DNA of 64,000 bases. It comes from Candidatus Baltobacteraceae bacterium. GTDB lineage: Bacteria > Vulcanimicrobiota > Vulcanimicrobiia > Vulcanimicrobiales > Vulcanimicrobiaceae. The DNA is taken from assembly GCA_036489885.1 (NCBI GenBank), contig DASXEW010000003.1, forward strand, positions 620,001-684,000, written 5' to 3'. The position numbers and the translations under genes are program-made. The notes under the pieces are model-generated. The model ran no database searches and had not been told where the DNA came from. It saw only the letters and a list, made by a program, of their open reading frames with translations. Below, one piece after another: positions 8,250 to 54,148 of the stretch; the first letter of the stretch is position 1, and every line of letters starts with the position of its first letter.

Positions 8250-9521
<1,272 letters not shown>

Positions 9522-9639
9522 TGTTGTTGCGAGCCCCGACGGGGAATGCTTACTTCTTCGCAATGACGACGGGCTCGCGCTTTTGGGGGCGCCATGCGAA
9601 GCATGGGGGGCGCGAAGCCTGGGGCGGAGCGCCGTTCAA
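9522..9639 (+). repeat. Structured intergenic repeat, copy 1 (leader of nadD)
   Basis: Fills the whole gap between the obgE stop and the nadD ATG. Parts: a 7-bp stem CGAGCCC (9530-9536) with GGGCTCG (9571-9577); hairpin CCATGC-GAA-GCATGG (9592-9606); stem GGCGC (9609-9613) with GCGCC (9629-9633), with GGAG (9626-9629) touching its 3' arm; then six bases, GTTCAA, before the ATG. The same architecture recurs at 53562-53674, and its 3' end recurs at 60822-60856. An in-frame TTG lies exactly 57 nt before the ATG, as in copy 2. Confidence 0.8.
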
Positions 9640-10254
9640 ATGAAGATTGGGCTGTTTGGGGGCGCATTTGATCCCGTTCATAATGCGCATCTGTTCGTAG
9701 CCGAGGCGGTGCGAGCTGCGGAGCGTCTCGATCGCGTCGTTTTCCTGCCACTGCGCGCGGGACACCATCGTAACGCGTTGCGCGGAAGCGTCGAAGATCG
9801 GGCGACGATGCTGCGTCTAGCGATCGCCTCGAACCCGGCGTTCGCCCTCGACCTCACCGATACGGACGAAGAGGCAACCGGCTACACCGCGGATTTGCTG
9901 CCACGCATGCGCGCACTCTATCCCGACGACGAGCTTTACTTCATCGCTGGGAGCGATTCGATCGTACGCGGCGGCTGGCAGCGTATCGACGACGTTTTCG
10001 CGCAGCTCGACGGTTTCTTAATCGTGCCGCGTCCCGAAATCGAGCGCAGCGAGCTCGACGTTGCGCTCGCGGCACTTCCGCCGCAACTACGAGCGAAGAT
10101 CCATTTCATCGACTTGCCTCTGCACATGGATTCAGCGACGACGGTGCGCGATCGTCTCGAAGCACTTGAAACGGTGCGGTATTTGGTGCCGGAGGCCGTT
10201 TGGCGCTACATTACCGAGCGCGGTTTGTACACGAACGGCGTGGCGCAGAAATGA
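9640..10254 (+). CDS. nadD: Nicotinate-nucleotide adenylyltransferase
   Basis: Adenylates nicotinate mononucleotide to deamido-NAD in NAD synthesis; 204 aa. The nucleotidyltransferase signature GGAFDPVHNAH is at residues 7-17, and the C-terminal nucleotide-binding motif appears as SATTVRDRL (family ISSTxIR). PDDELYFIAGSDS is the conserved central block. The ATG at 9640 directly follows repeat copy 1 by its six-base tail. A longer frame with 19 extra residues exists through the repeat but is not part of the family. Usual partners rsfS and proA are missing; it overlaps lysA by 4 nt (ATGA). Confidence 0.95.
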   Translation: MKIGLFGGAFDPVHNAHLFVAEAVRAAERLDRVVFLPLRAGHHRNALRGSVEDRATMLRLAIASNPAFALDLTDTDEEATGYTADLLPRMRALYPDDELYFIAGSDSIVRGGWQRIDDVFAQLDGFLIVPRPEIERSELDVALAALPPQLRAKIHFIDLPLHMDSATTVRDRLEALETVRYLVPEAVWRYITERGLYTNGVAQK

Positions 10255-52680: not shown

Positions 52681-53561
52681 ACGCGCGCGCTTCGAGCGGA
52701 CAACGGTCGGGCCTGCAGCGCACGTTGCGCGAGCCGCTGCGTTTCTCAGGCGTCGGGCTGCACACCGGGAACGACGCACGCGCTACGATCGAGCCGGCGG
52801 AACCGGACACGGGTCTCGTGTTCGTGCTCGAAGGGGGCGTGACGATTCCGGCGCTGGCAGAATACGTCGTGGACACGAGCCGCGCCACTGTTTTGGGTCG
52901 CGACAGTGCACGCGTCTCGACGGTCGAGCACTTGCTTTCCGCGCTGCGCGGCATGGGGATCGACAACGCGCGCATCGAGGTTACCGGCGGTGAAGTCCCC
53001 GCGATGGAAGGCAGCGCGAAAACGTTTGCGGATGCCATACACGCAGCGGGCACGTTCACGTCTGATGTTTCGCGCCGAACGTTCCGTCCGGATCGCGCGA
53101 TGGGCTTTCGCGACGACGACAAGACGGTTGCTATCATTCCATCGATCGCGTGGCGTATAAAGTTTACGGTCGTGTATCCGGCGCCGATCGGTACGCAGTA
53201 TTTCGAAGCCGAGATCACGCCGGAACTGTATCGCGAACAGATCGCTCCGGCGCGCACGTTCGGGTATCTTCACGAGGTCGAAGCCTTGCTAGCGCGCGGA
53301 CTCGCGCGCGGCGGCTCGCTCGACAACGCAATCGTCTTCGCTCCGGACGGACCGATGCAACCGTTGCAGTGGCCGGATGAACCCGTGCGTCACAAAGTCC
53401 TCGACATGATCGGCGATTTTGCGTTACTCGGAATGTATCCGCAGTGCGAAGTCGTTGCGCTCAAGAGCGGCCACAAACTCCACGCCGCCGTCATGGCAGA
53501 ATTACGCACCTCGTCAAAGGTCGGCGATCACATTGTCGAGTCGGGACAGAACCGACAATGA
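52677..53561 (+). CDS. lpxC: UDP-3-O-acyl-GlcNAc deacetylase
   Basis: Zn-dependent committed step of lipid A synthesis, 294 aa from GTG 52677, which overlaps the lpxD stop (GTGA). Zn ligands His85 (STVEHLL), His239 and Asp243 (HKVLDMIGD), general base Glu111 (AMEGSA), and His266 (SGHKLHA). FSGVGLHTG opens the family domain. Followed by repeat copy 2 and fabZ; in Bacteroidota LpxC and FabZ are fused, here they are adjacent. Confidence 0.96.
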   Translation: MNARASSGQRSGLQRTLREPLRFSGVGLHTGNDARATIEPAEPDTGLVFVLEGGVTIPALAEYVVDTSRATVLGRDSARVSTVEHLLSALRGMGIDNARIEVTGGEVPAMEGSAKTFADAIHAAGTFTSDVSRRTFRPDRAMGFRDDDKTVAIIPSIAWRIKFTVVYPAPIGTQYFEAEITPELYREQIAPARTFGYLHEVEALLARGLARGGSLDNAIVFAPDGPMQPLQWPDEPVRHKVLDMIGDFALLGMYPQCEVVALKSGHKLHAAVMAELRTSSKVGDHIVESGQNRQ

Positions 53562-53674
53562 TGTTACGAGCCCCCGCGGGGGATGCAGATGTTTCGAAAT
53601 ACTGACGGGCTCGACGGTTGGGGGCCCCATGCAAAGCATGGGGGGCGCGGAGCTTGGAGCGAAGCGCCTTAAGA
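53562..53674 (+). repeat. Structured intergenic repeat, copy 2 (leader of fabZ)
   Basis: Same element as at 9522-9639, filling the lpxC-fabZ gap. Stem CGAGCCC (53567-53573) with GGGCTCG (53607-53613); hairpin CCCCATGC-AAA-GCATGGGG (53625-53643), two base pairs longer than in copy 1; stem GGCGC (53644-53648) with GCGCC (53664-53668); then TTAAGA and the ATG at 53675. An in-frame TTG is again exactly 57 nt before the ATG. Confidence 0.8.
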
Positions 53675-54148
53675 ATGCGAGAGCTTAATATCCGTGAGAT
53701 CATGGAGATACTGCCGCATCGATACCCGATGGTGCTCATCGATCGCATTCTCGAGCTCGAGCCGCTCAAGCGCGCCGTAGGCTATAAGAATCTCACGATG
53801 AACGAAGAGTTCTTTCAAGGACATTTTCCCGGGAATCCGGTCATGCCGGGCGTGCTGATGATCGAAGCGATGGCGCAGCTCGGTGGGACCATGATTCTAG
53901 CGGCCGGCGATTTTTCGCATCTCACGCCCTATCTGACGGGAATCGACAAACTGAAATTCCGGCGCCCCGTCATTCCCGGCGATCGCTTGATGATGACCGT
54001 CAATATGCTGCGTGCGAAGCGCAACATGGGGTGGGTCGAAGCCGAGGCTCGTATAGAAGATACCCTCGTGTGCAGCGGCGAGCTGATGTTTTCGATCGTC
54101 GCGGGCGCAGGAGGCTTTGCGCTGGACGCTTCGATTTTGCATTTATGA
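53675..54148 (+). CDS. fabZ: 3-hydroxyacyl-ACP dehydratase FabZ
   Basis: Hot-dog-fold dehydratase of fatty-acid elongation, 157 aa. Catalytic His15 (LPHRYPMVLID) and Glu64 (GVLMIEAMAQLGG); FFQGHFPGNPVMPG is the family core. Start ATG 53675, six bases after the repeat's final stem; the nineteen residues possible upstream belong to the repeat. Competes with LpxA for hydroxyacyl-ACP; ATGA overlap with lpxA. Confidence 0.96.
   Translation: MRELNIREIMEILPHRYPMVLIDRILELEPLKRAVGYKNLTMNEEFFQGHFPGNPVMPGVLMIEAMAQLGGTMILAAGDFSHLTPYLTGIDKLKFRRPVIPGDRLMMTVNMLRAKRNMGWVEAEARIEDTLVCSGELMFSIVAGAGGFALDASILHL

Follow-up and report, generated by a model that had tools for sequence, protein, structure and literature searches.

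A dispersed, structured repeat with the layout of a leader cistron ahead of start codons in one family of Candidatus Eremiobacterota

In the genome of a Candidatus Baltobacteraceae bacterium, obgE and nadD are separated by a structured sequence that reappears, in the same window, ahead of fabZ, and that raises the question of what kind of element is carried, at so regular a distance, to the start codons of unrelated genes. The window is the whole stretch of DNA that was analyzed, 64,000 nucleotides in length; positions given below are counted from its first base, and all of the features described in it lie on the forward strand. A preliminary description of the locus had regarded the gap as a portable structured leader, belonging to a new repeat family and acting as a translational control or mRNA-processing element, and had named further copies, a fixed distance to start codons and covariation in the stems as the points to be checked; each of these three checks turned out in its favor. 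The explanation favored here, to which a probability of roughly 0.6 is assigned, is that the sequence is a dispersed, structure-forming, non-autonomous repeat, the retained copies of which serve as a translated leader cistron that couples into the host gene.

The first copy, of the form termed type I below, extends from the obgE stop to the nadD start (9521 to 9639). Alignment with other copies places its left boundary at a conserved ATGTTGTT and its right boundary at the start codon; the span first proposed (9522 to 9639) was correct at the right end, and at the left end fell one base short of the conserved ATG (9521 to 9523). Within this copy, the two strands of a stem termed P1 (CGAGCCC, 9530 to 9536, and GGGCTCG, 9571 to 9577) are assigned from covariation across 83 type I copies. 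They are followed by a CCCC-hairpin (9590 to 9608) that differs in length among copies, displays changes on both sides in its pair counts, and in this copy contains one mismatch and the hairpin CCATGC-GAA-GCATGG (9592 to 9606). A further hairpin with an internal loop, GGCGC-GAA-GCC-TGG-GGC-GGA-GCGCC (9609 to 9633; GGCGC and GCGCC strands at 9609 to 9613 and 9629 to 9633), has 97-98% of its cells paired across 19 copies. The GGAG proposed as the nadD Shine-Dalgarno sequence (9626 to 9629) lies within the element and shares one base with the GCGCC strand, and a six-base linker, GTTCAA (9634 to 9639), leads to the nadD start codon (9640 to 9642), which is supported by NCBIfam TIGR00482 and by homologues that start at the same residue.

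The second copy, also of type I (53558 to 53674), lies between the stop codon of an lpxC-like gene (TGA, 53559 to 53561) and the start at 53675 of a gene assigned by NCBIfam as fabZ. The two copies are present as the preliminary description reported them, the first with P1, both hairpins, the GGAG and six bases to the ATG; the fabZ copy has GAAG in place of GGAG. The window contains two occurrences of a P1-like pattern, and 100 shuffles contain none. The two copies, folded singly, are only weakly more stable than their shuffled counterparts (z of -1.7 and -1.2), in a comparison from which one further sequence, L175, was excluded for its wrong coordinates.

The repeat family itself is real, and proved to be far larger than the two copies from which it was proposed. 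In the whole genome (3.48 Mb in 4 contigs; Candidatus Eremiobacterota), blastn returned 41 matches, and a covariance model (R1) built on the 3' domain returned 46 at E<=1, 41 of them at E<=0.01. Of 99 genomes from the family, 46 match the model at E<=1e-7; they represent 22 of 38 genera, with copy numbers ranging from 0 to 35 inside a single genus. Outside the family, 16 genomes from its order and class yielded one weak match. A search for the sequence pattern across about 85,000 species genomes produced 103 stretches, and among the 80 of these that were listed, one came from a Streptomyces and the rest carried the titles of Candidatus Eremiobacterota, WPS-2 or unnamed bacterium MAGs. The element thus appears to be essentially confined to one Candidatus Eremiobacterota family, and virtually missing outside it. 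Rfam covariance models did not match the window at the gathering threshold, nor the element at eight loci at a permissive E<=1, and a search of viral contigs for the 3' end of the element returned no exact match. Literature searches found no report of riboswitches in Eremiobacterota and, among the papers listed, nothing relevant on structured RNAs or intergenic repeats in WPS-2 or on MITEs tied to start codons, and a narrow query on repeats and ribosome-binding sites was likewise empty. Two weak model matches (L239; G000:C3:1806842-1806916 and 1807990-1808065) are tRNA-like sequences with a 5' half, GGGGGCGCGTAGCTCAGGGGGAGAGCGCC, that resembles the 3' domain, perhaps by chance; a tRNA-derived (SINE-like) origin of that domain, considered from these two matches at chance-level E values, is not claimed.

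Copies of the element are about 110-125 nt in length and share a common 3' domain, consisting of GGGGG, the variable-length hairpin with its CCCC/GGGG base, the sequence GGCGC-GNA-GCC-TGG-GGC-GGA-GCGCC, a linker of six bases rich in A and T, and the start codon, in that order. The 5' domain takes two main forms: in type I, the P1 stem encloses CC-NN-GGGGAAU, while type II contains the pairs GGACCGAG/CGAGGTC or GGAGCGAG/CGAGCTC, with the strands found in either order. The stems covary strongly. In type I, 38 distinct P1 5' strands occur among 83 copies, and pairing with a copy's own partner scores 6.30 of 7, against 5.07 (sd 0.08, maximum 5.30) when partners are swapped; in the 3' domain hairpins of 19 copies, 13 cells display changes on both sides, compared with 3.0 after shuffling, and the covariation score exceeds that of all 500 shuffles. 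GGAG, a putative Shine-Dalgarno element, is present in 89 of 93 start-adjacent copies, at a spacing of 10 nt from the start as read from the sequence, and in 54 of 65 others. Decayed copies with internal deletions retain their right-hand end. Five copies that are not at start codons (L135, L159, L166, L172 and L141, from the CP_BE_BS_R1_9 and palsa_1529 MAGs) share an extension of about 40 nt after TTTTAAAC (ACG..TC.AAGCC..ACC.CGTTAGAGC), which may represent a longer version of the element.

Across 169 distinct copies of the element, a start codon (ATG, GTG and TTG are all found) lies 5-8 nt past GCGCC in 95, and exactly 6 nt past it in 68; the corresponding numbers in this genome are 29 and 23 of 41. 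Three species of another genus supplied a hold-out set of 43 copies; 32 of these are start-adjacent, 29 of them at exactly +6, and nadD is preceded by a copy in one of the three species. About 40% of copies across genomes fall outside the range of +5 to +8 from a start. Copies are often found at the tight stop-start junctions of operons. In this genome, the genes behind them include, by NCBIfam, valS, alaS, atpA, nadD, fabZ, sucC, idi (type 2), the methylmalonyl-CoA mutase C domain, trxB and ureC, and, by Pfam, rpmJ, a GNAT acetyltransferase (rimI-like) and a yebC-type gene.

Several exceptional loci were noted in the course of this comparison. In genome G001, ATC (trxB, L093) and ATT (rimI, L086:2426-2485) stand six bases past the element, in the place of the start codon, and represent either rare start codons or MAG errors. 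In genome G110, the copies upstream of ruvA (L248) and livH (L244) are antisense, and another species of that genus has sense copies there. In distant genera of the family (L040, L041, L042, L044, L039, L066 and L043), the 3' domain is repeated between genes, at times in tandem, with GGGGTCCCC and another hairpin after it, and is unlinked to starts.

That different genera share target genes (atpA and rpmJ in three genera; glmS, ruvA, purC-like, rfbA-like and mcm in two; and rbfA preceded by a copy in three genomes) is, together with the strong P1 covariation around a conserved CCNNGGGGAAUC core and a hairpin containing the Shine-Dalgarno sequence next to the start, what would be expected of a regulatory RNA regulon, in which binding of a protein or ligand to a cis-acting switch controls the translation of many housekeeping genes and the open frame described below is incidental. 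The purC-, rfbA-, rbfA-, glmS- and ruvA-like names were presumptively assigned from N-terminal sequence. This explanation is nonetheless improbable: the type of 5' domain at one and the same gene often differs between genera, copies with large internal deletions survive, and the number of copies varies, as noted above, from none to 35 within one genus. A switch would also leave unexplained the manner in which stop codons are matched to reading frame.

Those stop codons belong to an open reading frame that the preliminary description, in recognizing the structure of the obgE-nadD gap, had missed: a translated-looking mini-cistron of 40 codons with a start of its own (9521 to 9643), delineated from the pattern across copies. 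Its ATG (9521 to 9523) overlaps the obgE stop codon (TAA, 9519 to 9521) as TAATG, and its TGA (9641 to 9643) overlaps the nadD start as ATGA. The fabZ copy is an exception to this pattern, its frame being broken by a stop at 53603 to 53605. Among the 43 start-adjacent copies that have an ATG at the left end, the frame of this ATG ends at positions -6 to +2 of the downstream start in 36, as against 12 of 86 for the other two frames (p 7e-15) and 12 of 31 for the ATG frame of non-adjacent copies at the junction position (p 1.5e-4); in the hold-out set, the leader frame ends at the junction in 15 of 19 cases and the other frames in 11 of 38 (p 6e-4), although these p-values count the copies as independent and, given their shared ancestry, overstate that independence. 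The open frame and its terminal stop could be inherited in part from one ancestral element. Common descent accounts least well for the fit of the stop to the frame of the individual copy.

Because the hairpins vary in length, the leaders arrive at the junction in mostly two frames. Those in frame 1 end mostly with TAA or TAG at -4, and those in frame 2 end with ATGA or, if the base past the start codon is not A, with a substitute TAR at -2 or -5; such a substitute is found in 5 of the 6 frame-2 leaders that do not have ATGA and in 4 of 37 copies where it is not needed (p 7e-4, with copies again counted as independent). The third frame, which would join leader and host protein into one product, is used by few copies (5 of 43). 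The frame in which the 3' half of the element is read differs from copy to copy, and a conserved small protein is ruled out on that ground; since different frames pass through the same RNA, what is conserved is not the peptide as such. The adaptation of stops both to the frame and to the base after the start codon argues that translating through the element is of consequence for the host gene.

Comparison with relatives established how such copies came to occupy their positions. Three genomes (G001, G008 and G009) have nadD without the element: the junction reads TCATAATGCGC in G009 and CAGCTAATG[TTGTT...TTCAA]ATGAAG in this genome. Element-free orthologous junctions display the same pattern at atpA and mcm, and are found as well at metK, livH, rarA and gcvPA; at metK, the filled junction of G104 (GGTACTTAA[GGTGATGG...GTTAAA]ATGGCG) corresponds to GGCACCTAGC-ATGGCG in G113, and at livH an AGGAGG remains upstream of the inserted element. 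From these pairs of filled and empty junctions it follows that the element enters immediately upstream of the start codon. A target duplication of that codon is plausible at nadD and atpA, where the ATG is ambiguous, and is contradicted by metK and livH, where there is none, such that no general duplication can be claimed; the left ATG is retained, including at sites with no ATG on the right side.

The agent of mobility was sought in one transposase family, Y1 (PF01797), which was absent from all 19 same-family genomes searched (G000 included) and present in 5 of 14 control genomes; an origin from RAYT/IS200-605 elements was rejected on this result, and a mobilizing enzyme was not found. As there is neither a consistent target duplication nor a mobilizing enzyme, the term 'mobile' is used here on the basis of presence and absence, and not of mechanism. 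Terminal inverted repeats were not observed, the left and right ends being unrelated in the copies compared. At one locus (L096:1-171 in G001:C75, where the element occupies 109-171 on the minus strand), a type I copy, itself complete, has TTTTAAACTGCGT after it and, beyond this, 27 nt of its own left end in inverted orientation (ATTCCCCGAGGGGGCTCGTAACAACAT), an arrangement that hints at possible terminal inverted repeats. An autonomous parent with the same ends was sought, and the 5' end without the 3' domain was found in decayed copies only. Integron attC sites were considered and dismissed: right ends sometimes read GTTAAAC or GTTAGAC, left ends contain no RYYYAAC (by eye), and copies are scattered singly across the genome.

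Differences in presence between relatives, the existence of decayed copies, and the copies that are antisense or not at a start would all be accounted for by a purely selfish repeat, similar to MITE or REP sequences, that prefers the vicinity of start codons and whose leader frame and Shine-Dalgarno sequence merely render insertion harmless, without coupling. The exact spacing and mostly sense orientation of the copies, and stops that fit each copy's own frame and the base after the start codon, speak against such a repeat, which we consider unlikely. What would separate it from a leader cistron is tolerance by the host as opposed to benefit, a distinction that lies beyond the reach of sequence alone.

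The favored explanation, that of a mobile leader cistron, envisions the following series of events. The start codon at the left end, within ATGTTGTT (type I) or GGTGATGG (type II), would capture ribosomes from the old junction or from the native ribosome-binding site; a leader of 36-40 codons would then be translated across the hairpins; ribosomes would halt at a TAA, TAG or TGA located between -5 and +1 relative to the authentic start; and the GGAG within the element would permit the same ribosomes, or new ones arriving on the opened RNA, to initiate the host gene. If the leader were not translated, the GGCGC/GCGCC hairpin at the Shine-Dalgarno sequence should weaken initiation, and the host gene would therefore remain coupled to upstream translation. 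The covarying structure may have a role in mobility, or in closing the Shine-Dalgarno sequence when the leader is untranslated. The earlier suggestion of a translational control element fits the copies, their position and the leader frame. Its companion suggestion of mRNA processing is favored by no observation in particular. The corresponding rival, a hairpin for RNA processing or stability between cistrons (in the style of REP, ERIC or NEMIS sequences, with an RNase III or RNase E site), agrees with the location of hairpins between operon genes, and such roles are known for other intergenic repeats; it would need neither a fixed distance of six bases nor a left-end start codon nor a frame-matched stop, and is very improbable. 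More speculatively, the element may home to translation start sites by a route guided by mRNA or ribosomes, as a portable bicistronic leader that spreads and rewires the coupling of core genes, a proposal that we regard as doubtful.

Several known systems share individual features with this element. REP/BIME, ERIC, BOX and NEMIS repeats are, as is the element, short, structured, non-autonomous and present in tens of copies; to our knowledge, none is anchored at a fixed distance from start codons, and the Y1 (RAYT) transposase associated with the REP/BIME comparison was not found in the 19 family genomes searched. Leader peptides of attenuators likewise place a short open frame ahead of a gene, whereas the peptide of the element varies, even shifting frame, and unrelated genes lie behind it. 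The nearest mobile relatives in kind are the Rickettsia palindromic elements, small (~150 bp) palindromic mobile repeats that also carry an open frame and whose translation is tolerated (PMC10969869, a review of MITEs); those elements lie in-frame inside open reading frames and encode a conserved peptide, whereas the present element lies ahead of the start codon, where its frame ends, and is read in several frames. In layout, the element corresponds to bicistronic design leaders, in which a short leader cistron carries an embedded Shine-Dalgarno sequence (a use that is putative for the element) and a stop-start overlap (PMC5995908), and which, together with natural translational coupling, operate by unfolding or reinitiation (PMC12548453, PMC5995908). 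The leader stop overlaps or abuts the downstream start in the 36 of 43 copies, and 15 of 19 in the hold-out set, described above, and fails to do so in the fabZ copy. Bicistronic designs are synthetic and natural coupling makes use of resident neighbors, whereas the element is a dispersed mobile repeat at many loci. With the defining features of the MITE, REP and Rickettsia families that were examined either lacking or not clearly present, it is best described not as a member of those families but as a new form among the short, dispersed, structured repeats, one that would act like a bicistronic leader.

The element would thus constitute a natural, repeated and genome-wide counterpart of a part that synthetic biologists have built by hand, with a leader cistron, an internal Shine-Dalgarno sequence and a stop-start overlap. 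It illustrates how a repeat can enter an operon at its tightest spot, between stop and start codon, in a manner that would leave translation unbroken. The dozens of replicate insertions, and the relatives that are free of them, provide material with which the effect of the leader could be measured, ahead of core genes such as nadD, atpA and those of tRNA synthetases, in a family of uncultured soil bacteria.
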